DNA of 32,289 bases from a virus: IMG/VR virus record IMGVR_UViG_3300006802_000305, positions 1-32,289 of that record, one strand, 5' to 3'. Position 1 is the stretch's first letter, and every line of letters starts with the position of its first letter. The translations under genes and the position numbers were made by a program. This document shows, one piece after another, positions 1 to 32,289 of this stretch. The notes below the pieces were generated by a model. It did no database searches, had not been told where the DNA came from, and saw only the letters and a list, made by a program, of their open reading frames with translations.

Positions 1-329
1 GAATCTGCCGCCCTGTATTCTTTGCTATCCAGCAGCGACAAGTCGCTCGATTCGTAAATTAAAATGACTAGAGATAGATAGTCTTTGACTTCTTGACTAT
101 TGCAATCGTCAACAGCGCGTGTTGCACATTGTAGAGCAAATTGTCTTTGAAGTTTTTCGAGGTGCTTATATTTTCTTCCAATAACCCAAAGTTTATCTTC
201 TATTGATATATTTTCTAGCTGGAGAAAATCGCAGAGTGTGCCCTCCCATTTGGGGTAGTGTTTTAAATAGTTACGCCACCTATTGCTACAAGGGTTAAAT
301 TGCTTGAGCCATGCTTTATTTATTTTCAT
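1..329 (-). CDS. Alanine-tetrad repeat protein, N-terminal part (continues at the right end)
   Basis: ATG at 329 shares its A with the TAA of the ERF gene (TAATG overlap), so translation is coupled. This part gives 109 codons plus two bases (TC) and runs off the left edge. Adding the G at 32289 makes TCG (Ser), and the frame continues without a break to a TAA at 32034-32036, for a joined protein of 194 residues. The first ~105 residues form a non-repetitive domain with Trp and Cys (MKINKAWLKQF at the start). The rest is a four-residue Ala-rich repeat. The arrangement resembles the phage/bacterial proteins with a Trp/Cys N-domain and AAxx repeats sometimes labelled putative immunity proteins; the function is unknown. 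Coding is confident, the role is not. Confidence 0.85.
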   Translation of the reverse strand, partial: MKINKAWLKQFNPCSNRWRNYLKHYPKWEGTLCDFLQLENISIEDKLWVIGRKYKHLEKLQRQFALQCATRAVDDCNSQEVKDYLSLVILIYESSDLSLLDSKEYRAAD

Positions 330-916
330 TATTTACTCGCCAAATACTTATCCACTTGTGCCACAAAAAGCGCCGCCTGACCTTTAAGATTAGGCAGCGC
401 CTTGAAGTATTCATATGCCCCGGTTAATTGAGCATGTGGAATGTCCTTTAGTTTTTTACCTTTTACAGCGGCAGCGCCGACTGGTGCAACAAACTCTCCA
501 GGATCACCTGTGACAACTACACCGCCGCCCGCTTGATTGGATGCTGTATGCCCCACTGTACTATCGCCATCGTCGTCCTCATCTGCCGTGATACCGAGAA
601 GCGCACAGTAACTATACCGTCTTCCGTATGTGATGGCAGAGCCGTTTTGCTGGTTATTAGGTGTTAAGTTTAAAGGGTAGCTACTGGAGAGCTGCTCGCC
701 TGATTCATGTAAAATAGTTGTTTGAATACAGGTATGACCCTCGTTAAAAACAAGCGGCTGTGTAACAACCAATCCATGCTTTAAGAGTGCAGGCTCTGTG
801 CAGGATAAAACTTCATCCATCGTGGCGTACATAGCGTTGTGCATACCTTTTTTATTTTTCTTAATTGGCCCAAATTCACCCTTGGCCTTAACCAATGCCT
901 TAATTAATTTATCCAT
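329..916 (-). CDS. erf: ERF-family single-strand annealing recombinase
   Basis: This 195-residue protein matches the ERF recombinase family (single-strand DNA annealing, phage genome circularisation and recombination). Seen: YATMDEVL near residues 30-37, the ihESGEqL strand around 69-76, GSAITYGRRYSycALLGI at about 92-109, followed by the acidic ADEDDDGD. These are the family hallmarks. An Ala/Gly-rich linker (~120-160) leads to a Lys-rich C-terminal segment. The start at 916 is chosen because GGGAGG lies three bases upstream; a longer reading from 961 lacks such a site. It is the first gene of the leftward operon. An annealing protein fits a genome that is circularly permuted or has repeated ends. 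Confidence 0.9.
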   Translation of the reverse strand: MDKLIKALVKAKGEFGPIKKNKKGMHNAMYATMDEVLSCTEPALLKHGLVVTQPLVFNEGHTCIQTTILHESGEQLSSSYPLNLTPNNQQNGSAITYGRRYSYCALLGITADEDDDGDSTVGHTASNQAGGGVVVTGDPGEFVAPVGAAAVKGKKLKDIPHAQLTGAYEYFKALPNLKGQAALFVAQVDKYLASK

Positions 917-930
917 ATGCCTCCCAATTA

Positions 931-1026
931 ACCGCGAGAAAGTGCCTATGTGTTTATGCAATCAATAACCCTCAAGGTTAAAAGCAAAATCTCGCGGTAG
1001 ACATGTTATAAAAAATAATTTATGTT
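931..1026. promoter_or_regulatory. Divergent promoter region with a 9-bp inverted operator-like repeat
   Basis: Intergenic between the leftward ERF operon and the rightward HTH gene. ACCGCGAGA at 931-939 and its exact inverse TCTCGCGGT at 990-998 flank 50 bp. Rightward promoter candidate: TAGACA (998-1003), 17-bp spacer, TATGTT (1021-1026), its -35 touching the right arm. Weaker leftward candidate: TTAACC/CATAAA with 17-bp spacing between the arms (minus strand of 953-981). The left arm lies just upstream of the ERF ribosome-binding site. The neighbouring HTH protein is the obvious candidate binder; that is inference. Confidence 0.5.
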
Positions 1027-1052
1027 ATGTAAAACTTTTTTTAGGAGAATTT

Positions 1053-1283
1053 ATGCAGACTGGATACGTCCTTAAAGTTCTTAGGGACTTAGCGGGATTA
1101 AGGCAAAAGGAAGTGAGCGCGGAGCTTGATTGGTACAACGGTAAACTCGCTTATATAGAGACGGGTTATACGGAAGCGACGCCGGATGAGGTGAAGTTGC
1201 TTTTAAGGCTTTATAAGAAAAATAAGGCCGATTTTGAGCTACTGGAAACGGTATTAAGCAAGCTACAGGGCAAGCGCAAGTGA
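1053..1283 (+). CDS. Small HTH (XRE-like) regulator
   Basis: A 76-residue protein with a helix-turn-helix of Cro/C1 type: VLKVLRDLAGLRQKEVSAEL then an LAYIETG recognition-helix end, at about residues 7-37. The rest is a short helical tail rich in Lys/Leu. AGGAG sits seven bases before ATG. It lies directly downstream of the divergent control region with the 9-bp inverted repeat, the usual position of a phage switch or early regulator. The HTH is degenerate relative to classical repressors, so DNA binding is probable but the target is inferred. Confidence 0.75.
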   Translation: MQTGYVLKVLRDLAGLRQKEVSAELDWYNGKLAYIETGYTEATPDEVKLLLRLYKKNKADFELLETVLSKLQGKRK

Positions 1284-5378: not shown

Positions 5379-6098
5379 ATTAAGTGGTTTAAGCATTATT
5401 CAAACGCTCACACTAATAAAATGATCCAAGCAATAATATCCGAGTCAGGTCTGGCCGATGCCATGAGGTACTGGCTACTACTTGAGTTACTGTGCAGCGA
5501 ATTCAAAAAAGACACCACAGAATTTATCTTTTCAACGCGTCAATTACAGGATGCGTTACATATAAAGTTCACCAAAAAGCTAACAACTTTTGCGCAACTT
5601 TTGACCAACTTTTCGACAACTTTTGACCAAAAGTCACTCAACTTTTGCCAACTTTCGGATAATTTTTGGAAAATTGAAACTCGTATTATACTGGATTTAA
5701 TGGGAAAAGACTTCAAAAGGACGCGGCTTAAAAGCGGCAATGCCACCCCTAAGAATAAAGAAGAAAGAATAAAGAAGAAAGAATATATATGTGTCAGTGA
5801 TTTTTCGGATGATTTAAAAAAAATTTACGCAGGGTACCCACGGAAGGAAGGTACCAAAGTCGGTATGGCGCGTCTAAAAAAACAGATTAAAAACCTTGAT
5901 GACCTTAACCGCTTCCGACAGGCCGTGGAGAACTACACTGACATGGTCAAATCTGAAAACCGGGAGAGGAAGCATATAAAACAATTTTCCGCTTTCACTA
6001 ACTGTTGGGAGGATTATATCGAAAAACCCACAACCACTCTAAGCGCGGTGGAAGATGATATGCGTAAACTCTTAGGGCCTGCGAGCTATGACCTCTAG
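5379..6098 (+). CDS. Replication initiator / replisome organiser, ATT start
   Basis: 239 residues if started at ATT 5379. The first residues, (M)KWFKHYSNAHTNKMIQ, match the strongly conserved opening of phage replisome-organiser proteins (WFKHYSNA...), continuing ADAMRYWLLLELLCSEF. GGAGG ends five bases before the ATT. The first ATG (5421) has no such site and would remove the conserved opening. The N-terminal ~75 residues are the winged-helix-like DNA-binding part, the middle is low-complexity (encoded by the iteron array), and the C-terminal part (SDDLKKIYAGYPRKEGTKVG...) recalls lambda O/DnaD-type partner-binding regions. Just upstream of a DnaB-like ATPase, as in lambda O-P type modules. 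Confidence 0.8.
   Translation: MKWFKHYSNAHTNKMIQAIISESGLADAMRYWLLLELLCSEFKKDTTEFIFSTRQLQDALHIKFTKKLTTFAQLLTNFSTTFDQKSLNFCQLSDNFWKIETRIILDLMGKDFKRTRLKSGNATPKNKEERIKKKEYICVSDFSDDLKKIYAGYPRKEGTKVGMARLKKQIKNLDDLNRFRQAVENYTDMVKSENRERKHIKQFSAFTNCWEDYIEKPTTTLSAVEDDMRKLLGPASYDL
5584..5659 (+). repeat. Iteron-like 11-bp repeats inside the initiator gene (candidate origin)
   Basis: CAACTTTTG starts at 5584, 5595, 5617 and 5639. Degenerate copies start at 5606 (CAACTTTTC) and 5649 (CAACTTTCG), and an inverted copy (CAAAAGT) at 5628. Spacing is 11,11,11,11,11,10 bases. Since 11 is not a multiple of three, the protein is not repeated in register, so the constraint is on DNA. About 90 bp downstream is a 40-bp purine-rich, AT-rich tract. 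Iterons followed by an AT-rich tract within the initiator gene is the lambda O-gene origin layout. Confidence 0.65.
5751..5790 (+). other. AT-rich purine tract, candidate DNA unwinding element
   Basis: Forty bases containing only seven G and no C, built from a repeated GAAGAAAGAATA-like unit and ending in ATATATAT. It codes for KNKEERIKKKEYI in the initiator. Position, length and composition resemble the AT-rich segment next to the iterons in lambda-type origins. Functional assignment is inference from that layout. Confidence 0.45.
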
Positions 6099-6876
6099 CG
6101 AAGAGTTAAAAATATTAAAACAGCTTTCCGAGGAAACCCATTTTAAAACGGGGCTTGGTTTTTTATCGGAGCATCGGGGATGGCGACGAGGGAAGATACA
6201 TACAATTTTAGGAGTAAGTCATGGCGGCAAATCAACACTTATCCGAACATTGGTTAAGGATATTACAGAGCATTTATACCGCAAGGAGTTTGTCGGGGTG
6301 TACTTAAGTGAGGAATCTAAGGATGAATTATTAATTGAACTTTCCCACACTGACGGGGTTGATTTAAACAGGTTGGTTATATTTTCAGAGCAGGATTACT
6401 CGAGCAACAATCCTGAGAAATTATTTTTTGTTTTACAGAAACTGGCCGAGAAAACAGATATTTTATTTTTGGATAATATAACAACGTCACTCATATACGC
6501 CGACAGAAAAATAAATGAACAAACACAAATGGCATTAAAAATAAAACAGCTAGCGAGTGAAAAAATGATCCCAATTGTAGTGGTTGCACATACAGGAAAA
6601 CAAATTGGCACAGGCTATCCGCGAATGATTGAGATGGATGATATCAGAGGATGCTCCACCCTGGTAAATATTTCACATTTCTTTTATGTACTCCAATCAA
6701 TCTATATCGGCGAAGAGAGGCATAATATTTTGCGTATAACCAAAAGTCGCGGCCAACCTGTAGAAAATACCATATTCAAACTTTACTACTACAGTAAGAG
6801 CCGTATTTTTGGTAAGTGCGAGGCGATTGATTTTGAAGTGTTTAGTGAATTATTTAAAAGAAGGAATAAGCTATGA
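6088..6876 (+). CDS. DnaB-like RecA-fold ATPase / helicase
   Basis: 262 residues. Walker A GVSHGGKST (42-50), Walker B DILFLDN (124-130), the VVVAHTGK motif (164-171) and DDIRGCSTLVNISHFFYVL (184-202), which corresponds to the DnaB motif with an Arg before a small-residue turn, then TKSRGQP in place of the usual KxRNG. This matches the C-terminal ATPase domain of replicative helicases without the N-terminal domain. It could be a phage helicase or a RecA-type loader. It overlaps the initiator gene by 11 bases, so the two are co-translated as an origin module. Confidence 0.75.
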   Translation: MTSSEELKILKQLSEETHFKTGLGFLSEHRGWRRGKIHTILGVSHGGKSTLIRTLVKDITEHLYRKEFVGVYLSEESKDELLIELSHTDGVDLNRLVIFSEQDYSSNNPEKLFFVLQKLAEKTDILFLDNITTSLIYADRKINEQTQMALKIKQLASEKMIPIVVVAHTGKQIGTGYPRMIEMDDIRGCSTLVNISHFFYVLQSIYIGEERHNILRITKSRGQPVENTIFKLYYYSKSRIFGKCEAIDFEVFSELFKRRNKL

Positions 6877-7085
6877 AGTGCTGGTGCGCGGACATTGGTT
6901 ATACTTGCCTTGAATGCGAAAAGGAAAACAAGTGGGGATTATTGAAAGATAGCGACAAGGCGAAGTTGTTAAAATATTTATACAACCAAGAAACAGACAC
7001 TATGAATTGGCTTAATGAAAACAGCTTGTGTGTTTCAATGGTGCCCGACAGATACTGCGGGAATTTAATAGGAGTACAAAAATAA
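6873..7085 (+). CDS. Small Cys-rich hypothetical protein
   Basis: 70 residues in an ATGA overlap with the ATPase gene, with GAAGGA eight bases upstream. MKCWCADIGYTCLECEKE carries four Cys within 15 residues, two more follow at LCVSMVPDRYC. Metal binding is likely; no family is recognised. First of the string of small accessory genes that runs to 9290. Confidence 0.6.
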   Translation: MKCWCADIGYTCLECEKENKWGLLKDSDKAKLLKYLYNQETDTMNWLNENSLCVSMVPDRYCGNLIGVQK

Positions 7086-7100
7086 TTAGAGAGGTAGAGG

Positions 7101-7205
7101 ATGAGTATTAGTATATGGTGGCTACTTTTAGTCCCGTTGGCCTTTTTGGTGGGAGTTTGGATTGTGGCTGCAAAGGTTTTTGGGGGATGGAATTTGTGGA
7201 AGTAA
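7101..7205 (+). CDS. Tiny membrane protein (34 aa)
   Basis: ATG 7101 directly after a GAGGTAGAGG cassette. The product, starting MSISIWWLLLVPLAFLVG, is one transmembrane helix followed by a short tail ending NLWK. Such single-span peptides are common among phage accessory genes; function unknown. It overlaps the next gene in another frame. Confidence 0.6.
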   Translation: MSISIWWLLLVPLAFLVGVWIVAAKVFGGWNLWK

Positions 7206-7498
7206 GAAAAAGAATTATAGAGTCGATCGCTAGTGGTGTAAATATAGAAATTAGGCCCGTGATTAATTCTAAAATTGAATCGCTTGAGCGGGCAGGTGTT
7301 GAATTTGAGAGCTATAGACACGCTTTTTCTCTTGGATATATTACAGGTATGAGTAACCCAACATTTGAAGCTGTGCAGGAATCTGTTAGGGTAATGAAGT
7401 TGTTTGGCTCTCTTGATGATAACGGCAAAAGAATAATTATGTTAATAATGGATGGAATTAAGGCGAGATATAAGGATAAGGAGACGGATAATGGTTGA
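7187..7498 (+). CDS. Hypothetical helical protein
   Basis: About 103 residues from ATG 7187; the GTG at 7196 is a real alternative because GGGGG (7182-7186) is well spaced for it but touches the ATG. The product is helical (RKRIIESIASGVNIEIRPVI at the start, then YRHAFSLGYITGM and KRIIMLIMDGIKARYKDK), with no recognised family. It overlaps both neighbours. Confidence 0.55.
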   Translation: MEFVEVRKRIIESIASGVNIEIRPVINSKIESLERAGVEFESYRHAFSLGYITGMSNPTFEAVQESVRVMKLFGSLDDNGKRIIMLIMDGIKARYKDKETDNG

Positions 7499-7715
7499 TT
7501 TAATAATAAACTACGATAAGAAAACGGGCGAAAGTCTGGAGTATTGGCCGTGTGACGGGGTTAATGTAAAATCTCATGGGTTTCATATTTTAGACAAAAA
7601 CAATTGTGAAATAACTCAAATATGGCTTGATGATAAACAGGCCAAGTCTCTTGCTTTTGGAATATTAAACTCGCTAACGAGAAAAATAAAAGTGAGCGGG
7701 GTAGGGGATGAGTAG
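7491..7715 (+). CDS. Hypothetical protein (74 aa)
   Basis: ATG 7491 with AAGGAG seven bases upstream, overlapping the previous stop by eight bases. The product (MVDLIINYDKKTGESLEYWP, later ITQIWLDDKQAKSLAFGILN) looks like a small alpha/beta protein of a type seen in other phage accessory regions. No function known. Confidence 0.6.
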   Translation: MVDLIINYDKKTGESLEYWPCDGVNVKSHGFHILDKNNCEITQIWLDDKQAKSLAFGILNSLTRKIKVSGVGDE

Positions 7716-7962
7716 AAACTGTGTAACTCACTTTCACGCTTGTGATTGTCGAGAAGAAAAATTCAAAAAACTTGAAGAGGAAAACGCCGAACTGCAGGCT
7801 AAAATCAAGCAATTCGCTGCGTGTATCGGGGATTTCCATAGGCTTGGCAAGTGTCACACAACAAGAGAGGCATGGGTTTGCGCTGGTAAATATATAGAAA
7901 AACATGCCACCACAATAAAAGAAGCTGAAGAGTTATTAAAAAACGAGGTAGAGAATGAATAA
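7708..7962 (+). CDS. His/Cys cluster coiled-coil protein
   Basis: 84 residues. It opens with RNCVTHFHACDCREEKFKKL, a compact His/Cys group likely to bind metal, followed by a coiled coil (LEEENAELQAKIKQF). This N-terminal signature is familiar from small phage proteins of unknown role. Translated from a degenerate copy of the repeated start cassette, with an eight-base overlap to the previous gene. Its C-terminus, NEVENE, is encoded by the next cassette. Confidence 0.65.
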   Translation: MSRNCVTHFHACDCREEKFKKLEEENAELQAKIKQFAACIGDFHRLGKCHTTREAWVCAGKYIEKHATTIKEAEELLKNEVENE

Positions 7963-8263
7963 ACACAGTGGCTCATCCTTCGACGACCTTTTAAAAGAGG
8001 AAGGAGTGGAAATTGTGGAGATAACAAATTGCGCCCATGGGAAACCCATCAAGGAAGACTGTCAGGAGTGCATAACAGATAAGATTATAGACGATCTTAG
8101 GGATGATATATTGGAGCTTAGGTATAAGTTGGAAAGGGCAAAGGAATTAATTAAAAGCGTTACTGACGCTTTAGATGACGAACACCAGATATTCTCACTA
8201 ATAGCTAGGGTAGAGTGTGAGTGTAGGAAATGGCTTATGGAAAACGAGGTAGAGAATGAATGA
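7955..8263 (+). CDS. Hypothetical protein with HigA-like N-terminal tag
   Basis: 102 residues. The start MNKHSGSSFDDLLKEEG closely recalls the N-terminal peptide of some XRE/HigA-type antitoxins (KHIGSSFDDFLxEEG), but the rest differs: NCAHGKPIKEDCQEC, a Cys/His cluster, then a helical segment and ECECRKWL. Ends in NEVENE, the same cassette-encoded tail as the previous gene. The similarity is from memory and may mark a shared interaction peptide. No function assigned. Confidence 0.6.
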   Translation: MNKHSGSSFDDLLKEEGVEIVEITNCAHGKPIKEDCQECITDKIIDDLRDDILELRYKLERAKELIKSVTDALDDEHQIFSLIARVECECRKWLMENEVENE

Positions 8264-8495
8264 GATATATCAATTTTTTAAAGCCCTCGCCTTAGTGCTC
8301 TTAATAAGCTCTAGTATTATTTTTTTTATTATTGGTGTTGTCGAATCAGATTTAGATGGGAATTGCGAATATCCATCTATTGCATCGTACTTCCCGACTA
8401 GGGTGATGGCGTGTGAGTTGTTTAAGCATCGGTTTGAAAACCAACAAAAGAAAATCGGCGAGATTAATGAAAAAGCATGGGAGAAGACAAGATGA
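8256..8495 (+). CDS. Small membrane protein
   Basis: 79 residues. Residues ~9-29 form a transmembrane helix (ALALVLLISSSIIFFIIGVV), followed by a conserved-looking CEYPSIASYFPTRVMACELF segment with two Cys and a charged tail. The pattern is typical of small phage membrane proteins with an extracytoplasmic Cys pair. Start from a cassette copy; stop overlaps the next ATG (ATGA). Confidence 0.65.
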   Translation: MNEIYQFFKALALVLLISSSIIFFIIGVVESDLDGNCEYPSIASYFPTRVMACELFKHRFENQQKKIGEINEKAWEKTR

Positions 8496-8812
8496 GCGAT
8501 ATGAAAAAATGCTTCCGTTGCGGGCTTTTTGACAGTGAAGATGGGGTCTGGGTTTGTCGTATGCATGGCCACAGTATTTCTGAACCATTCAGGGAAGTGT
8601 GTCCTAAAATTATTCAAGTCGACGATTATATAGATAACCAAGTTGAGGATATTTGTAAAAAAGAAATAGCACTTGTGAAACTCCAGAAAGAACTCGCCAC
8701 CGCTAGAAAGGTTATTGAAACGTACCAATGCCCAACTTGCGCTGGTGAAGATTTCGCATCTGATAAATGTGATGAGTTAATATCATGTAAATGGCTTAAA
8801 AAAACGAGGTAG
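8492..8812 (+). CDS. Cys-rich coiled-coil hypothetical protein
   Basis: ATG 8492 is chosen for the ATGA overlap with the previous stop and GGGAGAAG upstream; an in-frame ATG at 8477 also exists. 106 residues: KKCFRCGLFD, VCRMHGH and CPK give a zinc-binding N-half, then a coiled coil (KKEIALVKLQKELATARKV) and a second Cys group (CPTCAGEDFASDKC). Ends KTR, encoded by the next cassette. Unknown role. Confidence 0.6.
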   Translation: MSDMKKCFRCGLFDSEDGVWVCRMHGHSISEPFREVCPKIIQVDDYIDNQVEDICKKEIALVKLQKELATARKVIETYQCPTCAGEDFASDKCDELISCKWLKKTR

Positions 8813-8815
8813 AGG

Positions 8816-9010
8816 ATGAGTGAATTTTGCAAACAATGCTCAATACTAATTTTTGGGGAAGATTTTGGAAACCTGAAAGGTATCTCAAAGCCTGAAGATG
8901 CGGAGAAAAATATCTACCCTATAGTAATTTGTGAAGGCTGTGGGCCAATTCAAGTTAACCCTGAAGGTGAATGTATAAGTAATGACTGTTTAAAAGCACC
9001 ACACAAATAA
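8816..9010 (+). CDS. Conserved small Cys-rich phage protein
   Basis: 64 residues: EFCKQCSILIFGEDFGNLKG, VICEGCGPIQVNPEG and CISNDC. This spacing of Cys residues around GEDFGDLKG and CEGCGPIQV is a familiar, widely conserved small phage protein without known function; it probably binds zinc. Preceded by an exact GAGGTAGAGG cassette. Confidence 0.7.
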   Translation: MSEFCKQCSILIFGEDFGNLKGISKPEDAEKNIYPIVICEGCGPIQVNPEGECISNDCLKAPHK

Positions 9011-9026
9011 GAAAACGAGGTAGAGG

Positions 9027-9290
9027 ATGAGTGAAACAAGACTAGAGTTTTGGAGTCGTCAGACTTTAAAAGAAACCGCTTCTAAAATACTTTGCGAATG
9101 GGCAGAAGATAGCAAGGAAAAGGATAGACGAATCGCGGAACTCGAATCTCGATGTAAAGAGTGGGAACAGAGGGCGCAGGTGATTGGCGGTAAATATTGG
9201 GACAAGGTTAATGAGTGTAAAGAACTTCAACAACAATATGCCAGAAAAGGAATAAACGGAGTTTATGACGAAAATGGAATAACGAGGTAG
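9027..9290 (+). CDS. Hypothetical coiled-coil protein
   Basis: 87 residues, almost entirely helical and charged (EFWSRQTLKETASKIL, then DRRIAELESRCKEWEQRAQV). No domain recognised. Starts after a GAGGTAGAGG cassette and ends inside the next one (ITR). That last cassette is followed only by a seven-codon frame from GTG 9294, so the module ends in a decayed or empty slot. Confidence 0.6.
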   Translation: MSETRLEFWSRQTLKETASKILCEWAEDSKEKDRRIAELESRCKEWEQRAQVIGGKYWDKVNECKELQQQYARKGINGVYDENGITR

Positions 9291-9313
9291 AGAGTGAATA
9301 GAACAGAGAGTAA

Positions 9314-9342
9314 GTGACAAAAGAAAATTACCGCGCTACAAT
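9314..9342 (+). promoter_or_regulatory. Strong sigma70-like promoter, probably leaderless
   Basis: GTGACA (9314-9319), 17-bp spacer, TACAAT (9337-9342): 5/6 at both boxes. ATG 9348 follows five bases after the -10, so the predicted transcript begins at or next to the start codon, and no ribosome-binding site exists. It marks the boundary between accessory and late genes. Confidence 0.6.
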
Positions 9343-9347
9343 AAAAC

Positions 9348-9551
9348 ATGGCGCGTCTACTGATTTACCTATTAGTTATCACCAACATAGAGCCAATCGA
9401 CTACATAGACCTCACGCCTCGCCCTGAATATATTGAAACCAAAGACCGCCCCGACATTGAAACGGAATACCTGGACATCTACGAATCGGACTACCAGCGA
9501 GAACTCGACGCTATCAATCGGGAGTTTGCGGGGATAGATTTTAGTTTCTAA
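9348..9551 (+). CDS. Acidic hypothetical protein, leaderless
   Basis: 67 residues: a short hydrophobic start (ARLLIYLLVITN) then a strongly acidic, Tyr-rich body (DYIDLTPRPEYIETKDRPDI). No recognised family. No ribosome-binding site; ATGGCGCG is the same first eight bases as the small terminase gene at 9610, and both follow a -10 box at 5-6 bases. The hydrophobic segment may be a membrane anchor or uncleaved signal. Confidence 0.5.
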   Translation: MARLLIYLLVITNIEPIDYIDLTPRPEYIETKDRPDIETEYLDIYESDYQRELDAINREFAGIDFSF

Positions 9552-9573: not shown

Positions 9574-9603
9574 TTGACCTTGCGGATATTAGCCTATTAG
9601 CAT
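9574..9603 (+). promoter_or_regulatory. Candidate leaderless promoter of small terminase
   Basis: TTGACC (9574-9579), 18-bp spacer, TAGCAT (9598-9603), six bases, ATG 9610. The 17 bases from 9597 to the GG of the start agree at 14 positions with the 17 before and at the portal start (14831-14847). That shared block, with no ribosome-binding site at either gene, suggests a common late promoter type. Confidence 0.5.
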
Positions 9604-9609
9604 TAAAGC

Positions 9610-10155
9610 ATGGCGCGAACTAAACGAGAATTGCCGCAATTGAGCTTAATGCAAAAGCGGTTTCTTAAATATTACCTAATGGACCCAACTAACGCCGCAG
9701 AGGCAGCACGCAAGGCCGGATACAGCCCCAAAACGGCGGCAAAAAAGGCCCACTTAATGCTCAAGGCCAAAAACACCCCCCTTTTGCCATATCTAGAGCA
9801 AGCTGCCAGCACAGGCGAATTAGAAATAGGCATGTCGGAAACCGATCTTTTTAATATGCTTGAGGGTATGGCCACCGTAAACATGTTTGACTTTATTAAT
9901 GTCAGCGGAGGGAGAACCATTGAAGTAAAAAGTCTTGAGGATATACCTTACGACTGGGGGCAGTATGTTAGAAAAGTTGAAGAAACGGCGCATGGAATAA
10001 GGATAGAGTTCTATGACAAGTCAAAGCCTATAGATATGCTTTTAAGGGCCAAGGGGGCCTATTCTAAGGACAATGAACAGAAAGCAAGCCTCACGATAGA
10101 GGAATATATTAAGAAAGTTAGGGACGATGAGAAGGGAAGCGATCCAATACAATAA
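9610..10155 (+). CDS. terS: Terminase small subunit
   Basis: 181 residues matching the Terminase_2 family of small terminases: LSLMQKRFLKYYLMDPTNAA then AARKAGYSPKTAAKKA (residues ~11-46), the DNA-binding N-domain. The middle part contains the ELEIGMSETDLFNMLEGMA helix pair, and a charged C-terminal tail. It recognises viral DNA and feeds it to the large terminase encoded downstream. Three genes separate the two subunits. The start lacks a ribosome-binding site, see the promoter entry. Its 3' end overlaps the next gene by 29 bases. Confidence 0.9.
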   Translation: MARTKRELPQLSLMQKRFLKYYLMDPTNAAEAARKAGYSPKTAAKKAHLMLKAKNTPLLPYLEQAASTGELEIGMSETDLFNMLEGMATVNMFDFINVSGGRTIEVKSLEDIPYDWGQYVRKVEETAHGIRIEFYDKSKPIDMLLRAKGAYSKDNEQKASLTIEEYIKKVRDDEKGSDPIQ

Positions 10156-32034: not shown

Positions 32035-32289
32035 TATAAACCCATTTCCTCAGCTAGCGCTGCGGCCATATTTATTTGTATGTCTCGCTCTGCCGCCGAG
32101 TCTGCCGCCGCGTGTGCCGCCGAGTCTGCCGCCGAGTCTGCCGCCGCGTGTGCCGCCGAGTCTGCCGCCGCGTATGCCGCCCAGTATGCCTCCGAGTATG
32201 CCGCCCAGTATACCTCCGAGTATGCCTCCGAGTATGCCGTCCCGCGTGCTGCCCAGTATACCTCCGAGTATGCCGTCCCGCGTGCTGCC
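32034..32289 (-). CDS. Alanine-tetrad repeat protein, C-terminal part (joins position 1)
   Basis: Continuation of the gene that starts at 329 and runs off the left edge. From 32289 it reads AARG-TAYS-EVYW-AARG-TAYS-EAYS-EVYW and onward, about 17 four-residue units of the pattern x-A/V-[Y/D/H/R]-[S/W/A/G], then AERDIQINMAAALAEEMGL and TAA. Two repeat types occur: a Tyr/Glu/Trp type near the junction and an Ala/Asp/His type further on. A four-residue period with Ala at fixed places predicts a long helix with one polar face. The window end cuts it inside a codon that position 1 completes. Confidence 0.85.
   Translation of the reverse strand, partial: AARGTAYSEVYWAARGTAYSEAYSEVYWAAYSEAYWAAYAAADSAAHAAADSAADSAAHAAADSAAERDIQINMAAALAEEMGL
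32088..32289. repeat. 12-bp tandem repeat tract coding Ala-rich tetrads
   Basis: Plus strand shows GCCGCCGAGTCT, GCCGCCGCGTGT and CCTCCGAGTATG variants in 12-bp steps. Near the right end a larger unit containing GCCGTCCCGCGTGCTGCC is repeated at 32236-32253 and 32272-32289, 36 bp apart. The first 12 bases of the window (GAATCTGCCGCC) extend the same series with one silent change. Such a tract can gain or lose 12-bp units without a frame change. Confidence 0.85.

Follow-up and report, generated by a model that had tools for sequence, protein, structure and literature searches.

A start-associated repeat array with stop codons in all three frames among the small accessory genes of an uncultivated tailed phage

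The window analysed here is one entire IMG/VR virus record of 32,289 bases, derived from an uncultivated tailed phage. It encodes ERF (329–961), a DnaQ-like exonuclease, RusA, HNH and a DnaB-like/AAA ATPase, together with TerS, TerL, the portal and the major head protein. A run of nine small accessory genes and one seven-codon open reading frame (ORF) sits between a helicase-like gene (6088–6876) and the packaging module (TerS at 9610). The same short junction repeat, here called a seam, is found at seven boundaries of this run, and the cassettes between seams hold from zero to three genes each.

Several other features of the window lie outside this run. The gene for the DnaQ-like DNA polymerase exonuclease (PHROG 403; 1651–2436) is interrupted by a single in-frame TAA (2041–2043), and both halves match PHROG 403 in order. 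This may represent decay, readthrough or a sequence error; a second record of the same phage (L005) starts at 2274 and cannot decide between them. The contig terminates within a 12-bp tandem repeat of 15 copies (32080–32289 joined to 1–60), and a minus-strand ORF composed of AAYSEVYWAARGTAYSE repeats crosses the joined contig ends without a stop. It is probable that the phage genome is circular, or else circularly permuted, and that this tandem repeat is where it was broken. Imperfect 11-bp direct repeats (CAACTTTTGAC-like) at 5583–5646, within the gene at 5421–6098, possibly form an origin-like iteron array.

The core of the seam, GAGGTAGAG, occurs exactly six times, at 7091, 7945, 8246, 8806, 9017 and 9284, always on the plus strand. 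In an exact copy, a fixed spacer of 6 nt separates an SD-like GAGG from the start codon. As the preliminary description had it, the start codon directly follows the motif: in all six exact copies there is one purine and then ATG (five copies) or GTG (one copy). That description also counted seven copies of the motif, of which these six stand; the seventh is diverged (GGGGTAGGGG at 7698). Here the seam reads GCGGGGTAGGGG-ATG (7696–7710), with three mismatches to the consensus and GAGGTAGAG lost. The AAAAC extension reported for the array is complete in four copies (7945, 8246, 8806 and 9017), but reads ATAAC in the copy at 9284 and is absent from that at 7091. The consensus junction, about 20–24 nt long, is AAAACGAGGTAGAG-R-ATG-ARTRA, which may also be written AACGAGGTAGAGRATGARTRA.

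In order along the plus strand, the first copy is ...TTAGAGAGGTAGAGG-ATG-AGTATT (7081–7109) and the second, diverged copy is GCGGGGTAGGGG-ATG-AGTAG (7696–7715). The third and fourth are AAAACGAGGTAGAGA-ATG-AATAA (7940–7962) and AAAACGAGGTAGAGA-ATG-AATGA (8241–8263). The fifth (8801–8823) and sixth (9012–9034) both read AAAACGAGGTAGAGG-ATG-AGTGA, and the last is AATAACGAGGTAGAGA-GTG-AATAG (9279–9301). The nucleotide identity common to copies amounts to 12–28 nt, and adjacent copies are the most alike (pairs 3/4 and 5/6). Since copies 1 and 2 have diverged, conservation of the seam is not absolute.

All of the cassette genes are on the plus strand. The first seam precedes an ORF for a 34-aa predicted membrane peptide (MSISIWWLLLVPLAFLVGVW...; 7101–7205), its hydrophobicity being read from the sequence. 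The same cassette contains a 103-aa protein with an ordinary start and no family match (7187–7498) and a 74-aa protein with an ordinary GGAG start (7491–7715), whose TAG stop falls within the diverged seam. The second and third cassettes each hold a single gene with no phage match, encoding an 84-aa coiled-coil-like protein (7708–7962; end ...LLKNEVENE*) and a 102-aa protein (7955–8263; end ...MENEVENE*). The NEVENE tails previously noted on these two genes are real, and arise because one frame reads through GAGGTAGAG. The fourth cassette encodes a 79-aa protein with a hydrophobic N-terminus (8256–8495) and a 106-aa Cys-rich protein (8492–8812) with an ordinary ATGA-overlap start and a TAG stop within the next seam. 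The fifth encodes a 64-aa Cys-rich protein of PHROG 2210 (8816–9010), 62% identical to gp39 of Pseudomonas phage 119X; its stop codon finishes 6 bases ahead of the GAGG in the following seam. The sixth encodes an 87-aa coiled-coil-like protein (9027–9290) with a TAG stop within the last seam.

This last copy does open just seven codons (VNRTESK*; 9294–9317), comprising GTG, six codons and TGA, which had been described as an 'empty slot'. The seven-codon ORF is in frame with the next ORF (9348–9551), and this next ORF lacks an SD. At their starts, ORF 9348 and TerS have in common CAxTAAAxCATGGCGCG (15/17; 9339–9355 and 9601–9617), again without an SD. The genes between seams are essentially unrelated, as first proposed: the best pairwise blastp match, between genes 7955 and 8492, has E = 0.044. 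Searches with the cassette proteins found relatives for gene 8816 only. Differences in composition between cassettes were considered as a sign of foreign origin and were uninformative.

The seam is conserved well beyond chance. In 300 first-order Markov simulations, GAGGTAGAG-R-start was expected 0.003 times and the GAGGTAGAG 9-mer alone 0.11 times, compared to six observed for each. The claim that the similarity exceeds what a ribosome-binding site needs also holds: over positions -14 to -1 agreement among the six copies is 12.2/14 positions (never below 10), compared to 4.2/14 in other starts. The predicted anti-SD pairing of the seam (-7.2 kcal/mol) is merely average, as 43% of the phage's other starts pair more strongly, and so the seam sequence is not simply the best SD. 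Ordinary SD convergence or chance, for which a usable SD (GAGGU) and a compact gene run could be cited, was therefore rejected as having next to no probability: the likeness of these start contexts is far above that of other starts at average SD strength, and the 1-nt gap to the start is fixed in every exact copy.

Column identity is 0.87 at -14 to -1, 0.47 at -20 to -14 and 0.60 at +3 to +9, and elsewhere lies at 0.22–0.27 against a composition background of 0.27. Because identity is at background beyond about -20 and +9, the element is sharply bounded, with a length of about 20–28 nt. These background flanks speak against the seams being a residue of gene duplication, in which the small genes would be old diverged tandem duplicates that kept their translation starts alone. 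Genes 7955 and 8492 are weakly similar and their 3' ends have a common AAATGGCTTA before the seam, and neighbouring seam copies resemble each other most. However, the proteins are otherwise unrelated and gene 8816 is a member of PHROG 2210, a family that is widespread and independent. This leaves duplication a highly improbable origin.

Repeats of this general kind have been described in other phages. The start-associated sequences (SAS) reported by Pope et al. in 2011 for cluster K mycobacteriophages (TM4 etc.) are 13-bp repeats that precede the start codons of small non-structural genes; they are more conserved than SD pairing would require, and have no assigned function (PMC3203893). A 26-bp repeat in Citrobacter phage Mordin was likened to SAS (PMC4611695). 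A blind index, which looks for 9-mers repeated identically in the same position ahead of at least three ORFs, recovers the seam array as well as the TM4 SAS and the Mordin repeat, which served as positive controls. The index yielded nothing in 119X, Lana, Bhz59, CRP-7 and MW202692, the first three of which carry homologues of gene 8816 with no start repeats. The idea that homologues of gene 8816 sit on start repeats elsewhere was discarded, as the Mordin homologue (at 7211) is not among the genes preceded by its repeat. In further viral loci the index gave two short candidates, besides scattered mixed-strand matches. In the first (L010), three neighbouring ORFs (reverse-strand starts 3763, 3986 and 4177) are preceded by a common CTTTAAATCAGAATAAG-ATG that shows no evident SD; this unrelated viral contig may hold another start-associated repeat array. 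In the second (L091; reverse-strand starts 12312, 12527 and 13034), two ORF starts have an identical 30-nt upstream block (GAGCGTCTTTGCTCTGTTTAAGGAACTATC) and the third has its last 11 bases, making a candidate start repeat.

Since the index picks up both positive controls, the seam array is of the same kind, and the best reading of it is a lineage-specific start-associated repeat array. Like SAS, the seam is a short, asymmetric repeat with an SD core, present in many copies per genome, and conserved beyond the need for rRNA pairing. SAS are almost always in one orientation and the seams (six exact, one diverged) always are; both stand a few bases ahead of the start codon, and the small non-structural genes concerned come from differing families. 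The upstream stop codons can fall inside the repeat in both cases. There are also clear differences. SAS are spread across the right half of the genome, whereas all seams lie within 2.2 kb, and the distance from SAS to the start varies (typically 3–7 bp) whereas exact seams are fixed at 1 nt. About half of SAS are accompanied by a 17-bp inverted repeat (ESAS), which is found at none of the seams, where there is neither a common fold nor conservation upstream of -20. While its function may resemble that of SAS, the seam does not belong to the cluster K SAS proper, which have the consensus GGGATAGGAGCCC and occur in other hosts; the seam sequence differs, and GC is 43%. The Mordin repeat resembles the seam in that it is long, nearly identical between copies and contains an SD, and it immediately precedes the starts of small hypothetical genes that belong to a single gene block. 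However, the Mordin repeats sit in intergenic gaps, while the seams overlap the ends of upstream genes.

The seam also contains a stop codon in each frame: TAG in GGTAG, TGA in ATGA, and TAA, TGA or TAG at +6 to +8. Within -20 to +12, stops in all three frames occur in 7/7 seams, compared to 11% of 37 other starts in the phage. In the narrower window of -14 to +9 the values are 6/7 and 3%, the third-frame stop of the first copy appearing only in the wider one. The codon in the third frame varies (one TAA, three TGA and two TAG), whereas the stop itself stays, and the diverged copy at 7698 retains all three stops despite the loss of GAGGTAGAG. Because the copies are homologous, the stops that they have in common (TAG and ATGA) count once. 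Such a junction after T occurs at a coding-wide rate of 0.32, from which a third-frame stop in 6/7 copies has P of about 0.006 (0.015 if the near-identical pair is treated as a single copy); as the test was devised after viewing the data and the copies are homologous, these values are suggestive only. At five of the seven boundaries the upstream gene terminates within the seam (7713–7715, 7960–7962, 8261–8263, 8810–8812 and 9288–9290), and these stops occupy two different frames with respect to the start that follows.

Stops in all three frames are not a rule in the repeats described previously. Within -14 to +9 the proportion is 0/11 in the TM4 SAS. In Mordin, 1/13 repeats carry them within -14 to +9 and 31% within -20 to +12, close to the values for its other starts (9% and 21%). 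The three-frame stop is therefore a feature added to known start-associated repeats, absent as a rule from both of the cases tested. Some resemblance is also seen to the ninR region of phage lambda, which Kroger and Hobom are said to have described in 1982 (Gene 20:25; cited in PMC8022706) as a chain of interlinked genes. There, too, small accessory genes are chained by ATGA stop/start overlaps with the SD within the upstream gene. However, the contexts of the lambda starts do not repeat a single sequence (mean agreement 5.0/14, maximum 9/14), and within -14 to +9 three-frame stops are found at 0/12 of the starts from O to Q.

The presence of stops at the SD and start in every frame of every copy, in the wider window, suggests that the seam may be a complete stop-and-restart gene junction that has spread through an operon of small accessory genes. 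From the sequence patterns described, we give this reading a probability of roughly 0.55. A ribosome ending the upstream gene, in whatever frame, would be released atop the next SD and start codon and could reinitiate there, so that the cassettes would be coupled and expressed at similar levels. Copying, recombination or conversion between copies may have carried the single junction to its other sites in the operon; an origin by spreading is suggested because identity ends abruptly at the edges of the junction and the genes between are unrelated. Against the junction reading, GAGGU may suffice for translation, and the remainder of the seam could be mere descent. Furthermore, the ordinary starts at 7187, 7491 and 8492, within multi-gene cassettes, indicate that the junction is not required for expression.

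Alternatively, the conserved sequence might be bound by a small RNA or an RNA-binding protein, from phage or host, through which the small genes would be switched as a group. A comparable regulatory role was proposed for SAS, untested, and Pope et al. also argued there from conservation exceeding the need for an SD (PMC3203893), as seen here in AAAAC upstream and AGAGR downstream. Such a regulon would fit the confinement of all copies to a single gene run, each immediately ahead of a start codon. However, no RNA hairpin or common fold was found at the seam copies, and no candidate regulator was identified. An Rfam search gave no match, and no predicted promoter or terminator coincides with a seam. 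The repeat is missing before some of the genes in this run, and regulation of this type leaves the three-frame stops unexplained. We consider it unlikely.

Outside this phage the seam was not recovered as an array. A DNA search of the 3.4-kb region against 50,697 phage records gave no match. Among 2.9 million viral contigs, more than one copy of the exact seam pattern is present only in the same phage, and seven further single-copy matches look like chance. L005, the only other record with the array, is 99.97% identical over 14.1 kb, with four differences (5794, 6050, 11014 and 11330), none of which is within the array. Profile searches identified the relatives L105 (TerL 59%, portal 54%), L106, L107, L108, L110, L025 and L116, the last of which lies in a Myxococcales MAG, where the nearest TerL from any bacterial assembly is located. 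The relatives retain the order g10127, g10513, TerL, g13563 and portal, in whole or in part. A homologue of g3419 is directly before g10127 in L108; in the window g3419 is 6 kb further upstream.

The preliminary description had proposed comparing gene content between the same seams in related phages and searching these for the motif. Different genes are indeed found in the interval, but the closest distinct relatives (TerL 50–60%) carry no seams, and the motif is absent from the relatives' virus records at up to three mismatches. In the 5.7-Mb Myxococcales MAG, seam matches equal in number those of a reversed-pattern control. No homologues of the cassette genes were found in the relatives, where the same interval carries wholly different genes. 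Nor did any relative show the reverse case named at the outset, the same gene order with drifted seams. Across the family the interval thus varies strongly, whether seams are present or not, and this variability neither shows nor excludes exchange mediated by seams.

These comparisons bear on the original proposal that the seams serve recombination, with short identical junctions allowing ERF to insert, delete or swap accessory genes and the last copy being an empty slot. The bounded identity of the seams, the unrelated genes between them and the variable size of the cassettes (zero to three genes) are all compatible with this, as is the replacement of genes in the relatives' interval while the synteny of g10127, g10513, TerL and portal is kept. 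The phage encodes its own ERF, and Rad52-like proteins of phages recombine homologies even when these are short or diverged (PMC3945230). Short homologies have also been proposed at the borders of exchanged segments in lambdoid phages, recombined by phage annealing proteins (PMC3945230); those homologies are between genomes at the edges of exchange, whereas the seam is repeated within one genome and no exchange was observed. The minimum homology for Red-beta is quoted as ~30 bp (PMC3945230), above the 12–28 nt seen here, although Rad52-like recombinases are tolerant. No relative was found with the same seams and different genes between them, and L005, as the same phage, is unchanged across the array.

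The ERF step is the weakest part of the exchange reading. ERF was not detected in the relatives, several of which are fragments that may not reach the ERF region; a weak ERF match occurs in the more distant L026. L108 encodes a RecT-like annealing protein (PHROG 561; 310–1107, minus strand) and yet has no seams. Annealing recombinases are thus swapped within the phage family, RecT-like in L108 and ERF in the window phage. A variable interval does not need a seam, as the relatives vary without one. Of the cassette-array proposal, the bounded and repeated junction module, the unrelated genes and the differing interval in the relatives stand, whereas swapping by ERF through the seams is unsupported, and recombination seams are a possible but rather unlikely explanation. 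A further reading, held to be improbable, is an integrase-free gene-cassette system, in which a universal connector would close any upstream frame and open the next, and genes would be inserted by homologous annealing between seams. If it were true, a small gene could be inserted in any frame with immediate translation, and its later loss would leave an empty slot. Under the stop-and-restart reading, gene gain or loss at the junctions is plausible, because relatives have different genes in the interval.

Start-associated repeats have been noted in phages since 2011 without a known function, and the seam array provides a case in an unrelated phage. Its three-frame stops and its overlap with the ends of upstream genes point to a possible function, namely frame-independent termination with reinitiation. 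If sibling phages had genes exchanged between the junctions, this would provide a concrete mechanism for the turnover of small genes in phage genomes.
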